NCBI GenBank assembly: GCA_026874595.1
Contig: CM049310.1
Span: 30,071,558 to 30,135,557 of the forward strand
Reading direction: 5' to 3'
DNA: 64,000 nucleotides
Source: Sipunculus nudus
Taxonomy: Eukaryota > Annelida > Sipuncula > Golfingiida > Sipunculidae
The number at the start of each line of letters is the position of its first letter. Position 1 is the stretch's first letter. Shown here piece after piece: positions 1,511-54,495 of this stretch. The position numbers were made by a program, and so were the translations under genes. The notes beneath the pieces are model-generated. The model was not told the origin of the DNA. It saw nothing but the letters and a program-made list of their open reading frames with translations, and ran no database searches.

Positions 1511-2702
1511 TGGGTTTATGTGAGGAAACAGACGCACAAATGGACACTGGGCAGCAAGGAAAGGTCAGATGTCAACCAAAAATGAAGGCGCAGCAGTTCA
1601 CATGTGACCTGATGATAAACCCGATTTGCTTAAAATGCAACCCAAGTTTTTTCAAACAGTTGAAAGATATAGTTCCAATAATCTGGGAATTCTGCATCTT
1701 AACATTGTATCCAGACTTTTGGATGCTGTGTCTAGACATCTAGACACATTGTCTAGACAACCCCCCCAGAGCCAGGTCAGTTGCCATGGTGATGTCTGGA
1801 CCCCACCTGTTTGTACTGAGTGACCTCTTGACTTGGCTGCATGAAGTCAAATCTGTTTTCAATTACAGAAAGCCTTTTTCAATTGGCTACAATGCTTTTT
1901 TAATACTGTATTTACCCAATCTTTTCTTATAAAACTGGCAGAACCCTACCATAGAATAATTCTTGTAAAGTTTAAACCAATCAGCTGAACAGTTTCATCA
2001 TAAATCAGTGTATAAGCTACAAGAGTTTAAAATTACATTTTCGCTTGTAAAAAACACATCAATGTAGGTGGCGCCACCATTACCTCAAAATCAGATATGA
2101 CATATGTGACAAACATTGGTATAAAATTTGGTCATTATAGCTCTAGCCGTTTCTGAGATTTTAATTTTAGTGTGCTTTTTTGGACAGATGACTAAGTTCA
2201 ACCTCCTGTAACTCGGCCAAAAATCTCCGAACTGGAACCATTCAGCAAACTTGAGAGAGATTGTTCCAGAGATCATTTCTGTGAAATATTGGACAATTTG
2301 GCTGGACAGTTTCAGAGAAGAATATTTTTAAAGGTTTTTAAGCTTTTTCTCTATAAAATCTAAATTAATGCAGATACCCAATAATAAGCTCCAGGCCACC
2401 AAGTTTCACATGTGACGAAATCTTACATGTAATTTGGAGCTGCTAGCTCCGACAGTTTCTGACTTACAGCCATGGGCGGTGGAAAGCCAGCCCTGGACGG
2501 CGGATGGTGGACGGCGGACGGACAACGCTGCGCCATCACATAAGCTCACAGGTTCGCTAAAAAGGGATATGAACATGGCACTAAGGACCCATGGGTCTCA
2601 ACACTCATCCAAGTTTGTCTGTAGGGATATTTTAATGAGCCTTTTCAAAATGTGGTTTCTGTGACCAGTGACGAATAACCTAGTGACCAAAAAAACTGAG
2701 AA
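1511..2702. other. Repeat-derived non-coding stretch
   Basis: No convincing gene. It contains another AGGTGGCGCCACC palindrome at 2066 and a GGACGGCGGA-type tract near 2490-2520, the same modules seen at 8.8, 18.8 and 38.2 kb. It looks like the worn continuation of a dispersed repeat. Confidence 0.55.
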
Positions 2703-4966
2703 CAGGCCTCGATTTATTGCATTCCCACATTCCCGAGGATGGCAATATTCATGGAGGGAATGCTGTATTTTTCATTGAATTCCCGATCAGGAACGCCAGC
2801 ATATAATCAAAGAATTAATTGAGTTTATTTTACAGGTCGTTTATAAAATGAAATAAATTTACGTTAAGGAAGGCAGTTAAAAAGAAACACTACCAAAAAT
2901 AGACGGTATATGCAGTTGCTTTAATTTTAGACGTGTCCTGATCAGTTGTGGCCGGTATGCAGGATGATTTGTCAAAAACTGACCTGCTTCTAATACCCTG
3001 TCATGATCGTTACAGAACTGAAGAAATCACGCAATTCTTGCAAAAACAAACATCTAATTTTTGGAGATCGTGCTCTAGACATCGTCAGTTGCAGGTTCCA
3101 TTATTTAACCCTGCCTCATTTATTTCATAAATGCACGATGCCGCCGTTATCTTAGCTGTAAAAAAAAATATTCATAACCACTGAAGCGACGCGATGTCAG
3201 TGAAAGTCATAAATGAAGTCACGTGGGTTGGATTTTTACTATGAATCTCTTATTGGCTCTCTATAAATGACACGTAATCGCTCCACCAATCACAAAAACC
3301 TATGCACGTGGCATGGATTTATGCAAATCAACGTGTCACATGGTTTCTATTCGGCCTTATTGCCAACATCCACAGGTTGACAGTATGAAAGATGAGCATT
3401 ATAATGCGACAGCGTTAAGCTTGCGCTTTATTTGTAATCAAATAAGAACAATTTCTAATTTCTTAATGTTTTTTCTGCGATTCGCCTATTTTTAATAAAT
3501 ATTTGTGCATCATAATATGTCAAATTTCATTTATCTCTGGCTGATGATGCCCGCAGGCTGTTTCACTGAGTGACGAAATTTGGGAGCGGTTTACCGGCAG
3601 TTTTTTCCTCTTACATACAAGAGTGTATCTGTCGTTCCACGAATATAGGCACAATCAGACTAATTTTACAGGCTCAAATGAAATTCTCGGCTACGTCTGG
3701 TAATACATTTCATTATGGAAACAAAGAACACCTTCCACATGAAACGAAGGAGTGTAAGAATGTAATAGAGGGCTGTTATTCTAGCACATGAAGGCAGACT
3801 TTTTACGGGCCCGGGCTTGCACCTTCACATTATTCGGGCCCGATCAAAAATTACGGGCAACCCTGGTATGACGATCAACTGAAATCGAACGCTTATTTAT
3901 TTATGAAAAATATATTTCATGATGTGATTGATGTTAACATGGGCACTGATGAAAATCGCCGTCCATTTGAAAAAAAAACGATGCCCATTTATTCCAACAG
4001 AATTTTTCCAAACGTCTCACATGTCAGCAGCCTTAGGGACGCGTTGTTAAAATGGCCCTTATCTCTGGTGCGGGCACCTATGGTGCATGTTTGTAGTAAA
4101 AAGTGCCAGTGATTTGGTAAACAAGGGTTTCAAACCTGGATATCAGGTACTTGTTCAAGATGAGTGGACCACATCAAAAGAAAATCTGAGGTGATAAACC
4201 AATAATTTATTATCTAAAAATCAACATTACTACTGCTGTTTTTTTTTTCAAATATTGTGAACAAAAAAAAAACAAAGCTTGTCCGAACATACCCTCTGCT
4301 CTGAAGTTCCTGCACTTGAGTTTCTCTTGGGTCACGTTTGTCATTTGACTATGGCGGGAACATTCATTTTGATCCCGGGTACAATACATTCATGCAAATT
4401 TTTCCCCTTGGTACCCTTTCGTAATGTGCCAGTCTTGCATGCAGGCAACACATATTTACATGTATTTGTATAGTATTTGATTAAATAGTATAATATATAA
4501 ATACATCCAATACGGAGGCCAAATACAAATGCAAATGCAAATATTATAATTGTAAACAACACAAATGCAAATAGGCCTACATGTAAATACACAATGTAGC
4601 TGTATTTGAACACAGATATGTATTTTACCCAAACCCTGCAAGAAATGCATTTCATTGAATTCCATTTGTATTTTGAAGTTTTTTTTATATATGGTGAACT
4701 TTGTCAGAGCATGATGCATGAGATGATCCTTTTTCTTTTGCTTCAACAAAAACCCTTGTTGCTCGTTTTCTATATTTACATTTCCATATCTAAATTAAGT
4801 GTTATCTTTGTAGTCATAGGGATATTGCTTATGCTTTTTTTCAGCTTAAAACTTTTGATATTTAAACAAAGTTTCTGAGGGTGTGTGATAGGTCTGGTGG
4901 GAATGCTAAGAAAATTGTTGCATTCCCGCGCGGGAATGTAACAAAATTTGATTATTTCGACCCCTG
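2703..4966. mobile_element. Probable non-autonomous hAT-like DNA transposon
   Basis: The left end reads CAGGCCTCGATTTATTGCATTCCC. The right end on the opposite strand reads CAGGGGTCGAAATAAT and then also reaches CATTCCC, which fits short imperfect hAT-type termini. GAGAAC occurs at both flanks, compatible with a degraded 8-bp target duplication, but the exact ends are uncertain. The interior has several open stretches of 60-70 codons but no recognisable transposase. It also has a small CCAAT/CACGTG-rich patch at 3220-3350. Confidence 0.4.
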
Positions 4967-41322: not shown

Positions 41323-41522
41323 GTGATGATCTGATCCACAGAGCAGGATGGATTCTCTGAGCGGCCTGGAAATAAGGCGCATGCGCCCAGAAGACTTGTC
41401 TCAAGTTCTCGCGCTACTTAGAACCGAGAACTGGAATGTGTCCCAGGAGTACCTGTATTTCTGTTACGAGATGTTCCCACAGGGATTCTACGTGGCGGTA
41501 TCGCCCTCTGGTGAAATAATCA
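41323..41522 (+). CDS. GNAT gene, first coding exon
   Basis: Acceptor TTGTTTCAG at 41314-41322, 25 nt of leader, ATG at 41348 and donor GTAAGT at 41523. It encodes residues 1-58 plus one base. Confidence 0.85.
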
Positions 41523-44521
41523 GTAAGTTTAATGAACATATGTTTTCAGAAGACCTGACTTAAAGTCGCCTGAGCTCCACCAACGTCCGGTCTTTCATCC
41601 ATTAACAAAGCACAGATCGTAAACGTTAGACCAGTTTAAATATGTCGGAAACGGCTGCAGCTATCAATTTCAAATTTTACAGTAACGTTTATAATGTGAT
41701 TGATGTATGCATGTAAGCTGCAGGTGGCACCATCTGTTTGACCTGTTTCCTGCAAGACAGAATGTCCTATTCCACTTTTTCCAAAGTACACAGAAAATAC
41801 AATGCTTTAGCTATCATATCATGCTAAACTGTACATCAAAGAAATGGTAACGAAATCAGTATGAACTATGTTGAATTATTCTCAGAAACACTTTTAATTA
41901 AGCCGATCAAAAATTTTGAAGATATATAGACTTTGCATATATAATTCCATATCTGCCACCCGATATTAGGGACTGCTGGGGCTGTGAGTACAAGATAGGC
42001 CTGTAATAGGCATACTGGTTTTCTGACCGGTAAATTAATGAAAGTTGCAGGTGGCGCCACTTATGTTGACTTTTGTTTCTGATACATGTATTACATGTAT
42101 TACTGTTCTTCAGAGCAAGTACATATAAGTGAGTACCAGTTGAAATGAGTTATTTTCGAAAGCACACCTTTATAGAATTTAGATTACTGCAGCATTGTGT
42201 ATCGTATTACTGCAGTATTGTTTATTGTATTGCTCGTTACCAAATGTTGAACATGTGACCTTTATGGTTATGTATACTACAGGGAGGGCAACTTAAGTAG
42301 GCCAACGTTCTCTGATCTAAAATAGTATCTTCCATATTCTAATTCTGAATGTTGTGCAGATTTATGCCTCAGGTTTGCACATGGCCACATGGCACCACGT
42401 AGGCTGGTCTATGGTTGAAATGATGTTTCAAGTTTCACTGTATTGTTTTATGAACTGTTACCCACAATGATGAAGTAGCTGCACACAGTAAATGTAAGAC
42501 GTTGACCGCACTCATCATAACCATTTGACCTGAGACGTTCAGGCAGGTTTCGTAAAGTCTCTTTGTTATCCACATGATAGTTAACTGTCACCTTGTTTAA
42601 TGTTTCAGCCACAGAGGTACGGCGTCATTGCCTGCAGACCACTTGTTTTCTGTATTTCTTACGAGTAATGATTGTTTATGTTACAAGCATTGAGGAATTT
42701 TTTTTTGCATAATTCGAGTCTCTTTTTTATTCAAGGTCACTGTGGAGAGTTAAACTGACTAATTAATCGTCGAATCTCTCTGTGTTCCAGGTCACTGTGG
42801 TGACTTAAAATGACTAATTAATCATGGAATCTCTCTGTGTTCCAGATCACTGTTGTGAGTTAAACTGACTAATTAAGTGTCGAATCTCTCTGTAATCTAG
42901 GACAATGTGGTGAGTAAAACTGACCAATCAATCGTCTAGTCTCTCTGTGTTTCCAAATCAATGTGGTGAGTTAAACTGACTAATTAAGTGTCGAGTCTTC
43001 CAGTATTCCAGGTCACTGTGGCGAGTTAAACTGACTGATTAATCGTCGAGTCTCTCTGTGGTCCAGATCACTGTGGTGAGTTTAACTGAATAATTAAGTG
43101 TCGATTCTTTCTGTGTTCCAGGATAATGTGGTGAGTTAAACTGACTAATTAGTCGTAGAGTCTCTCTGTGTTTCACGTCACTGAGGTGGGTTAAACTGAC
43201 TTATCCTGTGTCGAGTCTATCTGTATTCCAGGTCACTGTTGTGAGTTAAACTGTCGAGTCTCTCTGTATTCCAGTTCACTTTGGTTAGTTCACTCTGGTT
43301 CACTGTGTTGAGTTAAATTGACTTATTAAGTGTCGTGTCTCTCTGTATTCTAGATCACTGTGGTGACTTAATCTGATTAATTCAGCGTCGAGTCTGCCTG
43401 TATTCTGGGTCACTGTGGTGAGTTAAAATGTCGAGTCCCTCTGTATTCCAGTTCACTGTGGTGAGTCAATCTGACTAATTCAATGCCGTGTCTCTGTATT
43501 CCAGTTCACTGAGGTGAATTAAATTGACTAATCAAGTGTCGAGTCTCTTTGTATTCAAAATCACTGTGGTGAGTTAACTGACTAATTATGTGTCGAGTCT
43601 CTCTATAGTCTAGGTCACTGTGGTGAGTTAAACGACTAATAATGTGTTGAGTCTCTCTGTATTCTAGGTCACTGTGGTGAGTAAAACAGTCGAGTCTCTT
43701 TGTATTCCAGTTCACTGTGGTAAGTTGATCTGACTAATTCAATTTTGAAATTCTCTGTATCCTAGGTCACTGTGATGAGTTAAACTGTCGATTTTGTCTG
43801 TATTTCAGGTCACTGTGGAGCAGTCGCTGTAACGGAACAGCTAGGAATGGTCGTGTTTCACGTCACACAGCCATCACATCGTAACATGGGCATCGGAAGC
43901 AGGGTGTTTAGAGCGGCCATGACGTCACTTGGAGACAGAAACGTCAGCCTCATTGCCAAATCTGGCACTGAACACATTCATGCCAGGCATGGATTTCATT
44001 TACAGTCTCTGAGAGTGCGGAGTTTCGCCGGTGTACCTAATTACTACATGATCAGCGACATCCCTGAAGACAACAAAATCCAAATCAGAGACATAAGTGA
44101 TGTACCGTTCGATCAACTGTCTTATTACGATCAAAGTATATGTCCTTTCCCAAGAGAAGACTTTCTTAGAAGATGGACATCTTACGATCGTAGTAAAACC
44201 ACAGTGGCCTTACTAAACGGAGCAGTGTGCGGATACGTATGCGCTTGGCGGCAGAATGACGTGTTGAATATCATGCCACTTTATGCAAATGACGGAATGA
44301 CGGCCCGGATGTTATTCAAAGCTGTAATTGGCTGGGCGTCATTAGGTACAAGCTTTGAAATAGCCGCCCCAGTGGAAAACAATGACGCAATAGACTTTTT
44401 CTCGTCTGTGTTTTCAAACGATGCGCACAATGAGAGTATCAGACTGTTCACCAAAGAATGTGTCACTGCTGACATCAGACCTGTGTACTCTATAGGAGGG
44501 TATGACCTCACTATTATATAA
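41348..44521 (+). CDS. GNAT-family N-acetyltransferase, two coding exons, 295 residues
   Basis: Exons 41348-41522 and 43809-44521 join in phase (A|GT) into 295 codons ending at TAA 44519-44521. The N-terminal half is a GNAT fold: IRRMRPEDLSQVLALLRTENW opens it, GFYVAVSPSGEIISHCGAVAV forms the central strands, and RNMGIG (83-88) is the R-x-x-G-x-G acetyl-CoA loop. The C-terminal half (about 130-290) resembles the second domain of YitH-type acetyltransferases (Acetyltransf_18), known from bacteria and some invertebrates. It transfers acetyl from acetyl-CoA; the substrate is unknown. A splice acceptor at 41321-41322 shows a leader exon further left. The intron carries a remarkable repeat array derived from the acceptor. 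Neighbours are unrelated. Confidence 0.88.
41545..42070. repeat. Dispersed repeat module (antisense copy) in the GNAT intron
   Basis: GACTTAAAGTCGCCTGAGCT at 41557 is a variant of the stem-loop tail. TTAACAAAGCACAGATCGT follows at 41602 and is shared with 54523. Palindrome cores AGGTGGCACCATCT (41721) and AGGTGGCGCCACTT (42049) follow. Confidence 0.6.
42730..43808 (+). repeat. ~55-bp minisatellite made of splice-acceptor-like units (GNAT intron)
   Basis: About 21 diverged copies, mostly 54-57 bp with some of 42 bp, of a unit reading CTCTCTGTATTCCAG, GTCACTGTGGTGAGTTAAAC, TGACTAATTAA and GTGTCGAGT. The array runs straight into the real acceptor TTTCAG at 43803-43808, whose exon starts GTCACTGTGGAGC, so the unit is a copy of the intron-exon junction. 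Many units also contain GTGAGT, a strong donor sequence, nine bases after the AG. Confidence 0.92.
43809..44521 (+). CDS. GNAT gene, last coding exon
   Basis: Acceptor TATTTCAG. It encodes residues 59-295 with the acetyl-CoA loop RNMGIG, and the stop TAA is at 44519. The frame is open throughout its 713 nt. Confidence 0.9.
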
Positions 44522-47054: not shown

Positions 47055-49238
47055 TTAGATTTGAGCACTCCTGAGAGCAGCCCGCAAACGGGGCCAGAAT
47101 GTAGTCACGTGATCAACGCCGTTCACTCCTGGCCATTCTAAGTATGTTTGTTGTCTGAGAATTGTTACCAAAGCTCGTGGCATGTCAGTCACAGGTACCT
47201 CCTCAAGCATAACAACGACGATTTTGTAGACACCACGCTCTATATGATGATGACGCGCCATATACATTTCAAATTTACACCAACCACTCCTAACGAAATT
47301 GTTGGAAAGTATCAGCAGCGCTCGACGACTGTTGGAGATACTTTTTAAAATGTTTTCCTCGATTGACTGGCCCAAAATAAAATCTCTCTGATGCAAACAG
47401 AAACGTACAGGGTTGTCTGTCTCTTCGAGATTTGGTAAGAGATAATCTCGAACCCACCAAAAGTCTCTCTCACTGTGAGCCACAAAAGCGTCATACTCGT
47501 AATCATTCGGATCGTCCCGTAGTTCCTCGTAAAGCGTTCGTCTGACCTTGAACTGTAAGAAACAGTACTTGATGTCCCAACGATGTCTGTACAGAAAAAC
47601 TGAGACTGTCACCAGAAAGGCCAAGGCACATAGGAGCCCGATCGTCGCGTCCAACCAGAGAATACTTGTGCATTGTTTTTCTAAAATTGGTAAAATAAGG
47701 CGCAAGTTGGACAAGCGATCTGTTTTCCCCTTGAGCATACAATATGAATTTTCCAGACCTCTGAATTGGTCACGTTGATTATAGCACCATCTCAGGAATC
47801 CCAGAGAATTACAGGAACATTCCAAAGGGTTCCCGTCGAGACGCAGAATGAACGGTTTTCCGTACAGATCTCTAGCGTTTTGGAATGTTGCTTCAAGAGA
47901 TTTCATTGCCTTGGGTGAAAGGTATCTAATGGTGTTTCCTGTTAGGTCCAATATTTTAAGATTTCTTAATCCGCTCAGGTCGAAGTTCAGATCCGTGAGT
48001 TCATTACCCGCTAAGGTCAAACTTGCAAGTCTGTAGCTGTTTCTGAAAAGCCCCGCTGTAAGACGTGCAATCTGGTTTCTTGAAAGATCTAGGTAAACTA
48101 GATTAGTCAAGTTCCTAAAAGGACCGGAAAATCTAGAAAGCATTTTGCCTAACCTGTTATTCGAAAGGCGAAGTTTCCTAATGGCGACTGAGAAATGCTT
48201 GCCGAAAGAGTCATTTGATAAAAACTGCATATTGTTGTTTGACAAGTCTAAAGTGAACCCCGTGGAGACTTTTTCAAATTCCATAGAAGCATACATATTT
48301 TGAAGGTTGTTTCGTGAAAAGTCAATAATCTTTACGCGCATGTGCTTTGTACACGTGATATATATCGTAATACCCATGGGCAAACTCCCAATATCAAAGG
48401 TTCCTTGTGCATAAAGTTCCCGCAGGGTTGTTGGCCAGGGTATGGCTATTTGCGCGGTTGGTGGAAGGGCTACCATTTCGTTCACGGGAAGTAGTGTAGC
48501 TTGTTTGCTGATATCCAGGACACGGATGTGCTGCAGTTGTCCAAATACTCTTTGTGAAAGAATGCCGAGTTTGTTTGTGCTTACATTCATTACCGTAAGA
48601 TAAGGCATAAATTTGTCCACTTCAGAACTAAAGCTGCGTATCATGTTGTGACTTAGGTTCAATTTTCGTAACGCGGTAGTTGCACAGGCCGTCATAAACT
48701 CATTTGTTATTTTATTTGTATGAAATAGGGAATAACTCGTAATATGGACCAACGAAAGATGAGTTAAATATGTTTTATTTAGTCCGGTCATTACCGCAAT
48801 AAATTCAATAAAGTTTCTTTTCCCAAGCATCGCATTGTACGACAAATCCAGTGATTCCAGTCTGCAGAACGGTCGGAACAAGTGCTTTGGTATGGGACCA
48901 CCGGAACCGATGTCGTTCCTTCTCAAACTGAGCTCACGCAAATTATCAAGTCCGAAGAAAGCGTCCTGTTCTAGAGCGTTGATGCTGCAGTTGTCCAACA
49001 GCAGTGTCCTGAGGTTTGTACAGTACATGAACGTTCGGTCGGGGATTTTCTTCAGGATATTGTGAGTTAAGATGAATTTGACCACACTTCCGGTACAGAG
49101 ATCTGGTACCACAGTGAGGTTTTTTGATTGACAGTTAACACTGTCATCTGTACAGGTACATGGCCAACACCTGTCCAACTCCGAGGTCGCAACTGCTGAC
49201 AGATATCCGGCGATAATCAACAAAGCCGTCAGTTCCAT
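47055..49238 (-). CDS. Toll-like receptor, single exon, 727 residues
   Basis: A complete intronless receptor. Signal peptide 1-18 (MELTALLIIAGYLSAVAT); one N-terminal cysteine cap CWPCTCTDDSVNC (24-36) to about 48; roughly 15 leucine-rich repeats (50-470) such as LRELSLRRNDI and LVYLDLSRNQI; LRRCT CSCNSLGFLRWC from 470; one membrane span 526-550 (ILWLDATIGLLCALAFLVTV); TIR domain 580-727 with box 1 YDAFVAHSERD and box 3 TTFWPRL. A single cysteine cluster places it with the vertebrate-type (sccTLR) group. It senses microbial ligands and signals through TIR adaptors in the family at large; this ligand is unknown. Box 2 reads CLHQRDFILGQ: the BB-loop proline found in most TLRs (RDFIPG in human TLR2) is Leu622. 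The frame is open with no sign of decay. Confidence 0.95.
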   Translation of the reverse strand: MELTALLIIAGYLSAVATSELDRCWPCTCTDDSVNCQSKNLTVVPDLCTGSVVKFILTHNILKKIPDRTFMYCTNLRTLLLDNCSINALEQDAFFGLDNLRELSLRRNDIGSGGPIPKHLFRPFCRLESLDLSYNAMLGKRNFIEFIAVMTGLNKTYLTHLSLVHITSYSLFHTNKITNEFMTACATTALRKLNLSHNMIRSFSSEVDKFMPYLTVMNVSTNKLGILSQRVFGQLQHIRVLDISKQATLLPVNEMVALPPTAQIAIPWPTTLRELYAQGTFDIGSLPMGITIYITCTKHMRVKIIDFSRNNLQNMYASMEFEKVSTGFTLDLSNNNMQFLSNDSFGKHFSVAIRKLRLSNNRLGKMLSRFSGPFRNLTNLVYLDLSRNQIARLTAGLFRNSYRLASLTLAGNELTDLNFDLSGLRNLKILDLTGNTIRYLSPKAMKSLEATFQNARDLYGKPFILRLDGNPLECSCNSLGFLRWCYNQRDQFRGLENSYCMLKGKTDRLSNLRLILPILEKQCTSILWLDATIGLLCALAFLVTVSVFLYRHRWDIKYCFLQFKVRRTLYEELRDDPNDYEYDAFVAHSERDFWWVRDYLLPNLEETDNPVRFCLHQRDFILGQSIEENILKSISNSRRALLILSNNFVRSGWCKFEMYMARHHHIERGVYKIVVVMLEEVPVTDMPRALVTILRQQTYLEWPGVNGVDHVTTFWPRLRAALRSAQI

Positions 49239-50149: not shown

Positions 50150-51011
50150 GGCATGAGAATACAGTGACGTGACTTTGACTAGGTACCTGTACAAACGACA
50201 CAAAAAACAGTGACGTTACGTGGGTGAGGTCCATGTACATAGGGCACAGAAAACAGTGACGTGACGTTTGCTACGTACAGGTACAAACGACACAAAAAAA
50301 CAGTGACATGACGTTGTCAAGGTACAGGTACATACGGCACAGAAAATGACTTGACATTGGCTAGGAATAGGCACAAAGGACACAAAATGATGACGTGACT
50401 GTGGCTTGGTGCAGGTACATACGACACTGAAAACAGTAACGTGGCGTGGGCTAGGTACAGATACATACGACATAGAAAACAGTGACGTGACGATGGCTAG
50501 GTACAGGTACAAACGACACAGAAAACAGTGACGTGACGTAGACTAGGTACAGGTAAAAACAACACAGAAAAACAGTAACGTGCCGATGGCTAGGTACAGG
50601 TACAAACGACACAGAAAACAGTGACGTGACGTAGGCTAGGTTTCAGGTGGAATCAGCACAGAAAACAGTGACGTGACGTTGGCTAGGTACAGGAACATAT
50701 ACAACACAGAAAAAGTAACGTAACGTTGGCTAGGTGCAGGTACATACGACACAAAAACAGTGATGTGACGTTGGCTAGATACAGGTACATATGACACAGA
50801 AAACAGTGACGTGGGCTAGGTACAGGTTAATAGGACACAGAAAAAACAATGACGTAACTTTGGCTAGGTACAGGTACATATATGACACAGAAAACAGTAA
50901 CGTGGCGTTCCCTAGTTACAGGTACATACGACACAGGAAACAATAACGTTACATTGGCTACATACAGGTACATACGACACAGAAAACAGTGACGTGAATT
51001 TGGCTAGGTAC

Positions 51012-51075
<64 letters not shown>

Positions 51076-52328
51076 CACAGAGCACAGTGACCTTACGATG
51101 GCTAGGTACAGGTACAAACAACACTGAAAACAGTGACGTTACGTGGGTTAGGTACAGATACATAGGGCACAGAATACAGTGACGTGAGTTGGCTAGGTAC
51201 AAGTGCATATATGACACAGAAAACATTGACGTGACGTTGGATAGGTACATGTACATAGGACACAAAAAACAGTGAAGTGATTTTGGATAGGCACAAGTAC
51301 ATACGACACAAAAATCAGTGACCAGACGCTTGCTAGGTACAGATACATATGACACAACAGTGATGTGACGTTGGCTAGTTACAGGTACAAACACCACTGA
51401 AAACAGTGACGTTACGTGGGTTAGGTACAGGTTTATAGGGCACAGAAATCAGTGACGTCACGTTGGCTAGGTACATGTATATATACGACACAAAAAACAT
51501 TGAGGTGACGTAGGCTAGGTATAGGTACATAGGACACAGAAAAAACATCTACGTCATGTTGGCTAGGTACAAGTACATAGGACACAGAAAACAGTGACGT
51601 GACCAGAGCTAGGTACAGGTACATAGAACACAAAAAACAATGACATAATGTTGGCTAGGTGCTGGTACATATATGACACAGAAAACAGTGACGTGAGGTT
51701 GGCTTGGACAGGTAGATAAAACACAGAAAACAGTGACGTGACGTTGGCTAGGTACAGGTACATATATTACACAGAAAACATTGACGTGACGTTGGATAGG
51801 TACATGTACATAGGACACAGAAAACAGTGAAGTGATGTTGGCTAGGTACAGGTACATACGACACAAAAATCGGTGACCAGACGCTTGCTAGGTACAGATA
51901 CATATGACACAACAGTGATGTGACGTTGGCTAGTTACAGGTACAAACGACACTGAAAACAGTGACGTCACGTTGGCTAGGTACATGTATATATACGACGC
52001 AAAAACATTGAGGTGACGTAGGCTAGGTATAGGTACATACGACACAGAAAAACATCTACGTCATGTTGGCTAGGTGCAAGTACATAGGACACAGAAAACA
52101 GTGACGTGACCAGAGCTAGGTACAGGTACATAGAACACAAAAAAAATGACGTAACGTTGGCTAGGTGCAGGTACATATATGACACAGAAAACAGTGACGT
52201 GAAGTTGGCTATGGACAGGTAGATAAAACACAGAAAACAGTGACGTGACGTTGGCTAGGTACAGGTACATATACGCAACAGAAAACAGTGACATGACGTT
52301 GGCTAGGTACACGAACATATACGACACA
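50150..52328. repeat. ~46-bp minisatellite, about 46 units, rich in TGACGT motifs
   Basis: Units read GTGACGTGACGTTGGCTAGG, TACAGGTACATACGACACAG, AAAACA with many point changes. Two copies carry full TGACGTCA (51457 and 51965 region). A (TA)n tract interrupts the array at about 51014-51073. A larger block around 51225-51560 is repeated near 51779-52070, about 554 bp apart, so there is higher-order structure. Long open frames exist in all phases because the unit lacks stops; they are not genes. Confidence 0.95.
51014..51073. repeat. (TA)n microsatellite inside the minisatellite
   Basis: About 30 TA units. Confidence 0.95.
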
Positions 52329-52445
52329 TGTGTCGTATGTACCTGCACCTAGCCAACGTTACGTTACTTTTTCTGTGTCGTATATGTTCCTGTACCTAGC
52401 CAACGTCACGTCACTGTTTTCTGTGTCGTTGGTACCTGTACCTAC
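52329..52445. repeat. Same minisatellite in inverted orientation
   Basis: Two and a half units in opposite orientation (TGTGTCGTATGTACCTGCAC...). They meet the main array head-to-head at the palindrome ACGACACATGTGTCGT. Confidence 0.93.
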
Positions 52446-54028
52446 CGTACTTTCACTCAGTTTAGCTAAAAAGCAATCAACACATCTGAAATTTATTTAA
52501 AATGAATGTACAATGGATTTATTTTGGAATATAATGCGATTTGGTAGGCCTCGAGTGGGCTAAAAAGGCATTGGAACTGTTTCCAAATCTTCAAAAATAA
52601 CCTAAATTAAAAAAAATACAATTTGGGAAAAAGGAATGCATGGGCCATATTATTAGTTCAATACGTCTTAGCAAATATTCTGAACAAGAAGGTCCGGTCC
52701 AGCAAATATTTTTTTATACGTTCATAGCATTTTTCGGTTTTAAATGGCCCCCAAGTAAACCCATTGTTGGGAAATAAATATTTTAACTGAAATTGCCTTT
52801 ATACGTTACAGGTATTCCACATTTTATATATTTAGGAATACCCTTTTAAAAACAAAAAACTCACCTGATACATGCTTAAAATAAGTACATTGTTTTTGGG
52901 TTTATTTTCGGAAAATAATATGATTTGCCCCATTTGACCTTTTGACCTTGAAATTTGACCTTGAAGATAGAAATATTAATTTCCACCAGTTCTACATTTT
53001 ATATATCTTGTAACACCTCAGTAAACCAATTCTATTTGTGTGTATCAAATGAAACCTGACCCTGACTCATTACCAAGCCGGGGGCTAACTAGATCTACTC
53101 TGCCGCACGGTTGTTTATTTTATTTAAACATGACATTTTTCAAACGAACAATCAAACAAGATTAGCAGGGCAAAATGACCATCACCCACGACTGTAAGCG
53201 AGATAATAAGAGAGAGAGGGAGCAAGTCCACATGCAAGTATAAGTGCAGACGCACGTTCAAACAGTCAGTTGTAAGTCCGACACTGATGAAATTTTCAAT
53301 CGTTTCCTCAACCCAAGGTGGAACTGAATATCTTTCCTCACAATATAAGAATTTTATTTTTATTTTATGGGCTACATTATATCGTTTTCTTTCCGTTTTA
53401 TTGATCAGTGCCATTTGCCAGGATGGAAGGTGACAGCGAGCCAACACGATGCCATATACCTAACTCAATTCACAGGGTAGACAGACTTTCGAAAATTCTA
53501 TAATAAACCTAATGATCGTTGGGTTTTTAATTTCGTGGATAAAGGTCACCTACGATCCCAAGAAAATAAAATGTCAACGATCAATTCTCAATCCACGGTA
53601 TATTTTCTTTTAATTTTGTTAACTCTTGACCTGTTGACCTTGAATGTAACAATAAAATGTTACAGAAAAAGTTAACAAATCAAAATCAAACCATGAAATG
53701 AACCCTTGCCCAAAACACAAACCCAATATTAAAAGAAATATTGGAATTTATTTTCACAATATTCTTCTTATTTATCATATATTTCATGAGTAAAAATAAA
53801 CATATCTCAGTACAACCTCATTTTTATTATTATTATTGCAGGTTATTTGTATATATAGGTGAAAATAAAATGTTACCACATTTGACCTTTGACCTTGAGC
53901 TGTGGGCTTGGAGGTCAAATGGCTCCTTGGCAACCGGGTGATTCTGAAACCTTGGATCATGGTCATACTTTCCAGCGCAGTTGCCAGCCATGGACAAAAA
54001 AAATGCTATCTAAAGTAAATATAAACAT
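52446..54028. other. Non-coding spacer between two minisatellite blocks
   Basis: Contains TGACCT half-site clusters at 52935-52970 and 53878-53896 (ATTTGACCTTTGACCTTGAG). A 107-codon minus-strand open frame at 53124-53447 has no recognisable motif. No gene called. Confidence 0.45.
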
Positions 54029-54495
54029 GTTCCTAGCCAATGTCACGTCACTGTTTTCTGTGTCGTATGTACCTGTACCTAACCAACGTCACTTCACTGT
54101 TTTCTGTGTCTTATGTACCTGTACCTAGCCAACATCATGTCACTGTTTCCTGTGTCCTATGTACCTGTACCTAGCCTATGTCACGTCATTGTTTTCTGTG
54201 TCTTATGTACCTGTACAAAACCAACGTCACGTCACTGTTTTCTGTGTCTTTTATACCTGTACCTAGCCAACGTCACGTCACTGTTTTCTGTGTCTTATGT
54301 ACCTGTACCTAGCCAACGTCACGTCACTGTTTTCTGTGTCTTATGTACCTGTACCTAACCAACGCCACGTCACTGTTTTCTGTGTCTTATATACCTGTAC
54401 CTAGCCAACGTCACGTCACTGTTTTCTGTGTCTTATGTACCTGTACCTAGCCAACGTCACGTCACTGTTTTCTGTGTCTTATGTACCTGTACTCA
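54029..54495. repeat. Second inverted block of the ~46-bp minisatellite, about 9-10 units
   Basis: Units CTAGCCAACGTCACGTCACT, GTTTTCTGTGTCTTATGTAC, CTGTAC are more uniform than in the main array. Several neighbours are identical, suggesting recent expansion. Orientation is opposite to 50150-52328. Confidence 0.95.

Follow-up and report, generated by a model that had tools for sequence, protein, structure and literature searches.

Tandem copies of a 3' splice junction at the end of an intron in a GNAT gene of Sipunculus nudus: a probable passenger minisatellite of the lancelet 'mirage' type

One example of splice signals multiplied in tandem is provided by the lancelet 'mirages', minisatellite-like duplications of intron/exon boundaries reported in the Adh3, globin, troponin C and PGBD5 genes (PMC3087553, PMC3902484), the last two having been added by the second report (PMC3902484). 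In these accounts, mirages are described as unstable in length among alleles and cells and as evolving in concert within a cluster, the outer copies excluded, while globin splicing was found to be regular by RT-PCR and aberrant Adh and TnC mRNAs were reported as absent (PMC3087553, PMC3902484). The authors proposed mirages as an origin of new introns (PMC3087553). The array described below shares with them a minisatellite-like unit (10-72 bp in Adh3, 150-160 bp in BflGb6, which with BflGb9 represents the mirage-bearing globins), a tandem duplication that spans the boundary (in BflGb6, the 3' end of the intron and the 5' part of exon 2) and AG/GT signals in many, not all, of the repeats. It differs from what is described for lancelets in its approximately 21 copies, versus six and three in two BflGb6 haplotypes, in the donor that most of its units add exactly nine bases past the AG, and in bearing no signs of recent homogenisation. 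A literature search that was far from exhaustive recognised no arrays termed mirage in this sense outside lancelets.

Several other systems share single traits with the array. In intron 18 of human ABCA7, a VNTR minisatellite opens with the genuine splice site of the exon beside it; the donor one unit further in is sometimes used, and skipping of exon 19 increases with VNTR length (PMC5954066). Its 25-bp units are polymorphic copies of a donor, whereas those considered here are copies of an acceptor. Human duplicated genes also contain repeats of minisatellite size at exon-intron boundaries (De Grassi and Ciccarelli, PMC2812944), variable internal tandem repeats from which cryptic splice sites and new introns can arise; these belong to recent paralogues, are supported by transcripts and comprise on average about four units of 30 bp, versus about 21 of 55 bp here. 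In the intron gain of a potato RdRp gene, the duplicated piece likewise consists of the 3' side of an intron and the 5' side of the next exon, carrying the branch site, the pyrimidine tract and the 3' splice site (PMC4974935), but there a single duplication became a used intron, whereas the present gene holds about 20 copies with no evidence of a new intron. The polyubiquitin gene UBC also contains a tandem array of repeated splice signals (PMC10809524); its monomers are coding, a single element acts as acceptor and as donor, and the isoforms have been seen, whereas the units here lie within an intron and have nine bases between AG and GT. Lastly, the OGT decoy exon offers intronic, rarely used splice sites, and differs in being a single decoy of about 150 bp with weak sites and a demonstrated effect on retention (PMC12017769). 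The preliminary description of the present locus knew of no comparable case, a claim that does not stand beside the published accounts of lancelet mirages (PMC3087553, PMC3902484) and of ABCA7, the donor mirror image of the array (PMC5954066).

The host gene and the anatomy of the array

The window analysed is a 64-kb stretch of S. nudus DNA that carries a two-exon gene of 295 amino acids with GNAT acetyltransferase domains (Table 1). Its exon structure is predicted from the reading frame and from paralogues; the joined translation is stop-free, and PF18014 and PF00583, both GNAT families, score above the Pfam cut-offs with a query protein that carried one extra serine. The predicted intron measures 2286 bases, the final 1.1 kb of which are filled by the array. 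Splice sites were scored with matrices of approximate human/metazoan percentages, and all scores are therefore rough: the real donor lies at about the 91st percentile among the GT sites of the window, and the real acceptor scores approximately 8.2.

Table 1. Positions in the window of the host gene, the array and individual decoy exons
Feature	Position	Strand	Remarks
Exon 1, coding part, GNAT gene	41348-41522	+	Ends in phase 1 (ATC A/); joined translation
Real 5' splice site GTAAGT (inferred)	41523-41528	+	Matrix score 4.7 (approximate)
Mirage-like minisatellite	42714-43794	+	Wrap-around alignment; 20 aligned units plus half copy
Unit 1, most exon-like copy (GTCACTGTGGAGAG), without donor	42714-42769	+	Alignment
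Complete decoy nine-base exon, example	42791-42799	+	Acceptor score 11.1 (real acceptor, 8.2)
Complete decoy nine-base exon with in-frame stop	43122-43130	+	A/GA TAA TGT G
Complete decoy nine-base exon with in-frame stop	43505-43513	+	A/TT CAC TGA G
Pyrimidine tract and AG, inferred real 3' splice site	43795-43808	+	Last array member; AG at 43807-43808
Exon 2, coding part with stop	43809-44521	+	Starts GTCACTGTGGAGC

The preliminary description had reported tandem intronic copies of the gene's own 3' splice site, and the alignment bears this out, with the real junction (43795-43824) aligning last, as a partial 21st row; the array begins 16 bp before the 42730 given there. The unit measures about 55 bp and typically comprises, in order, the branch-point-like CTGACTAAT, the pyrimidine tract TCTCTCTGTATTCCAG, AG, nine exon-derived bases (GTCACTGTG) and often GTGAGT. 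The half copy sits inside a rearranged unit and has its junction at 43299. A 16-base junction probe with up to three mismatches matches 21 times in the array and once elsewhere in the 64-kb window, versus 0.53 times on average in shuffled windows. These in-register matches, together with the exon starts shared by paralogues (see below), rule out an array unrelated to the junction and uphold the view that the unit is the acceptor junction itself.

Four of the spacings between units measure 43 bp (43232-43275, 43409-43452, 43668-43711 and 43766-43809), and by eye these are a nearly identical 12-base shortening that removes ACTAATTAAGTG; the last of them directly precedes the real acceptor. The motif CTGACTAAT is absent before the real acceptor. 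A weaker branch point at that site was considered and dropped, since another candidate obtains an equal crude motif score. Among four single stretches subjected to RNA folding, that at 43586-43646 is more stable than its shuffles (z -2.5) and the other three are no better than theirs; the window contains no Rfam family at gathering scores. Mean identity between units is 0.79 (171 pairs, 19 rows). It changes little with the spacing of the units compared, from 0.80 at lag 1 to 0.78 at lag 7, and no pair of units exceeds 0.907, so that the array does not look freshly homogenised.

The window has other features of its own. On the minus strand, an open frame of 727 amino acids (47055-49238) resembles by eye a Toll-like receptor, with leucine-rich repeats, a transmembrane stretch and a TIR-like end. 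Minisatellite arrays with a unit of about 46 bp lie at 50156-52444 (47 copies) and 54028-54492 (10 copies), the unit being reverse-complemented from 52329 and at 54028. From its first base to position 1510, the window consists of 5.4 tandem copies, 90% alike, of a 278-bp unit, and words that resemble the GCAGGTGGCACCA of this repeat reappear near 41720 and 42050, within the GNAT intron.

Relatives of the gene and origin of the array

The S. nudus genome (1.43 Gb in 153 contigs), which is larger than those of lancelets, contains relatives of the GNAT gene with 22-40% identity. A protein search gave 30 matches, 28 of them outside the gene itself (the other two being its own exons), and 18 exon-2 starts, including that of the gene itself, entered the comparison. 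AG followed directly by GT (AG-GT) is found at the same codon in 14 of the 17 other starts, the exceptions being L017, L019 and L023, and exon 2 begins with GTCACTG in 11 of the 17, which agrees with the exon start on which the preliminary description had based its acceptor-junction unit. None of the 17 paralogues has an upstream copy of its own junction in an ungapped search of 1.2-1.6 kb of upstream sequence; their best upstream matches to the junction have 15-19 mismatches of 37, versus 8-9 in the array-bearing gene. Since most of the paralogues share the exon start and none has such copies in the stretch searched, the exon emerges as the source, and the array looks private to the host gene. 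Most simply, the exon start would be an old feature of the family and the array a later addition. A search of the 1.43-Gb genome that scored best candidates only returned no match to the array DNA other than itself, which rules out a dispersed repeat.

Unit 1 and exon 2 have GTCACTGTGGAG in common, and this stretch at the start of exon 2 probably gave rise to the exon-derived part of each unit. In a tree of the units, unit 1 clusters with the real junction with weak support (0.41), both having A at column 32. This weakly supported grouping fits a first copy nearest to the origin, and if unit 1 is that first copy, the donor of the other units would stem from a single A-to-T change.

Among the 30 protein matches, no spliced retrocopies were seen at a glance. 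GNAT relatives are clustered on contig C11 at about 17.22-17.51 Mb (e.g., L003-L005, L007-L009, L011, L012, L014, L018 and L021), and several of them have stops in the matched stretch; the relatives on this contig may represent a birth-and-death gene family. L019 has a tandem array of its own, with a 145-bp unit in 6.7 copies (2250-3225), which begins about 250 bases upstream of the exon-2 match; no copy of the L019 junction was found in it, and just three sites there resemble acceptors, with scores of 5.8-6.2.

The array is quite probably a passenger, a minisatellite that belongs with the mirages. Its tandem units span the intron/exon boundary of the host gene, as placed by gene structure and paralogues, and AG/GT signals are found in many but not all of them. 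According to the sequence of events that we favor, the last 43-45 or so bases of the intron and the first 10-12 or so of exon 2, i.e., a segment with branch point, pyrimidine tract, AG and exon start, would have undergone tandem duplication on the upstream side of the junction, and later amplification would have raised the number of copies to about 21. At the joint between copies, an A-to-T change, from the GGAGAG of the exon-like unit 1 to GGTGAG, would by chance have formed a GTGAGT donor, and it is for this reason that the amplified copies would resemble nine-base exons. The array would afterwards have decayed without detectable selection, while the spliceosome went on joining exon 1 to 43809. 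That acceptor would be chosen because it is the only one before a long exon, nine-base exons lying 15-47 bases apart being poor substrates.

Decoy sites, their decay and the consequences of their use

Counting the half copy, the array contains 21 decoys, of which 16 have the AG in place and 17 the GT exactly nine bases on. Both are present in 13, so that the preliminary proposal of a nine-base microexon in each copy applies formally to these and fails for the eight incomplete ones; an exact GTGAGT, said to follow the nine bases in many units, does so in 11. By the approximate matrices, five of the 16 decoy acceptors score clearly higher than the real one and one ties with it, and 16 of the 17 decoy donors exceed the real donor. 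Given that decoy sites often outscore the real ones, local strength does not explain why the decoys would be ignored. The scoring of AG/GT pairs that had been suggested as a check yields 11 pairs with nine-base spacing in the array, at thresholds picked post hoc near the lowest sites of the array; 300 dinucleotide shuffles contain 0.02 such pairs on average and never more than one. When all spacings up to 30 are counted, the shuffles average 1.1 pairs and reach at most 5. Outside the array, a single nine-base pair occurs in the window on the array's own strand and seven occur on the other, and four other arrays in the window have 0 to 4 acceptor-donor pairs per strand, with at most two of one length, versus 11 here.

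The decay of the array is neutral-like. Excluding the rearranged row 11 and the real junction, 19 of the 21 rows entered the column tests, and 123 of their 1011 sites (12.2%) diverge from the unit consensus. AG survives in 15 of these units (14.6 expected), GT in 16 (14.6 expected) and both in 12 (11.3 expected from mean column retention). The least variable columns are those of the donor (0.070, p 0.089) and the branch point (0.076, p 0.065), versus 0.122 overall in one-sided, uncorrected tests, and a weak constraint may act on them; neither the pyrimidine tract, at 0.133, nor the nine bases, at 0.105 (p 0.31), departs clearly from the overall value. No splice element shows significant excess conservation among the 19 units, and this test, weak at that number, supports neither maintenance nor removal of the decoys.

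The coding sequence, by contrast with the 12.2% divergence of the units, is intact. At the divergence of the array, simulations give a probability of 0.03 that no internal stop would arise from substitutions alone, and the indel rate of the array predicts about 19 indels in the 888 bp of coding sequence. If gene and array mutate equally, the GNAT gene thus seems to have stayed under selection while the array was present; an array mutating faster than unique DNA may weaken this argument. A gene under constraint would imply that enough correctly spliced RNA is made, and the intact coding sequence suggests that splicing to 43808 presumably works.

These observations bear on whether the array does something. 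U1 and U2AF/U2 bound to the decoys could form unproductive pairs with the real sites, so that the intron would be retained or removed slowly and output lowered or regulated. The 1.1 kb hold 17 decoy donors and 16 acceptors, many outscoring the real sites, and mis-spliced RNA would be non-productive, since reading on from any of the 21 decoy acceptor positions, if nothing more is spliced out, ends at a premature stop, a result that also rules out a coding minisatellite. In line with this possibility, the OGT decoy exon is reported to be needed for intron retention (PMC12017769), and ABCA7 indicates that a splice-site minisatellite can affect splicing, which counts against a mere passenger (PMC5954066). 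However, no selection is detected that keeps the sites, the OGT decoy is described as about 150 bp long with weak sites rather than 9 bp (PMC12017769), and lancelet mirages reportedly leave splicing undisturbed (PMC3087553, PMC3902484), all of which makes decoy-driven retention unlikely. A very improbable use of the same signals is protein diversification, in which nine-base microexons, included in varying number, would add three residues each, of the S/N/I/G-H-C type, just ahead of the HCG in the GNAT domain. As exon 1 ends in phase 1, inclusion of nine bases keeps the frame, as had been pointed out, and 11 of the 13 complete decoys are stop-free; the other two hold a stop, as does the incomplete one at 43177. 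Between a donor and the acceptor of the next unit lie 44-47 bases in 16 of the 21 cases; of the other five distances, four are 34 and one is 15. Such distances match the usual lower limit of intron length or fall short of it. Neighbouring copies could therefore hardly be joined together; splicing that skips over a copy is possible by length, and with introns of at least 60 nt the arithmetic ceiling is 600 mRNAs. Against diversification stand, besides the stops, the eight incomplete decoys, the lack of excess conservation in the nine bases and the special enhancers that very short exons require.

Stepwise splicing, either recursive or dual-specific, would use each AG-GT first as acceptor and then as donor, in the dual-specific form with introns whose lengths are multiples of the repeat, as the tandem dual-specific sites of human UBC are reported to be used (PMC10809524). 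Seven of the 21 decoys keep AG-GT, with donor scores of 2.9-5.4 in the unspliced sequence, but once exon 1 is joined none of the seven regenerates a good donor by the approximate matrix (-2.6, 34th percentile), and the units, mostly 55 bp long, are no multiple of three and contain stops, unlike ubiquitin monomers; we regard this reading as extremely improbable. The earlier suggestion that the copies diversify the protein or pace splicing thus finds no backing in the poor regenerated donor, the stops, the short donor-acceptor gaps or, within a weak test, the splice dinucleotides, which are kept no better than other bases. It is hardly credible that the array is an assembly artefact, with an incorrect copy number or a chimeric repeat. 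Assemblies often get the length of tandem arrays wrong. One lancelet mirage is reported to have been misassembled in a draft (PMC3087553), but the units differ from each other and, being distinct sequence, should place easily. Altogether, a working splicing device, whose 13 complete nine-base exons and 33 decoy signals (16 AG and 17 GT) would slow or withhold intron removal in a manner tuned by copy number, or else give GNAT isoforms with three-residue insertions where the two exons meet, appears decidedly unlikely, whereas a passenger mirage that probably lacks function accommodates both the decayed array and the intact gene.

Significance of the array for splice-site choice

The array belongs to a described kind and is notable for its copy number and for the completeness of its decoys, adding a large example to the boundary-spanning minisatellites represented by lancelet mirages and related human forms. 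If the device reading were true, it would be a mirage turned regulated element. As it stands, the array is a natural test of how the spliceosome chooses one acceptor over 16 near-copies, several of which score equally well or better. If its RNA splices cleanly, this would argue that the exon body, and not the site, decides; if it does not, the array may show the birth of an intron or microexon while still at a raw stage.
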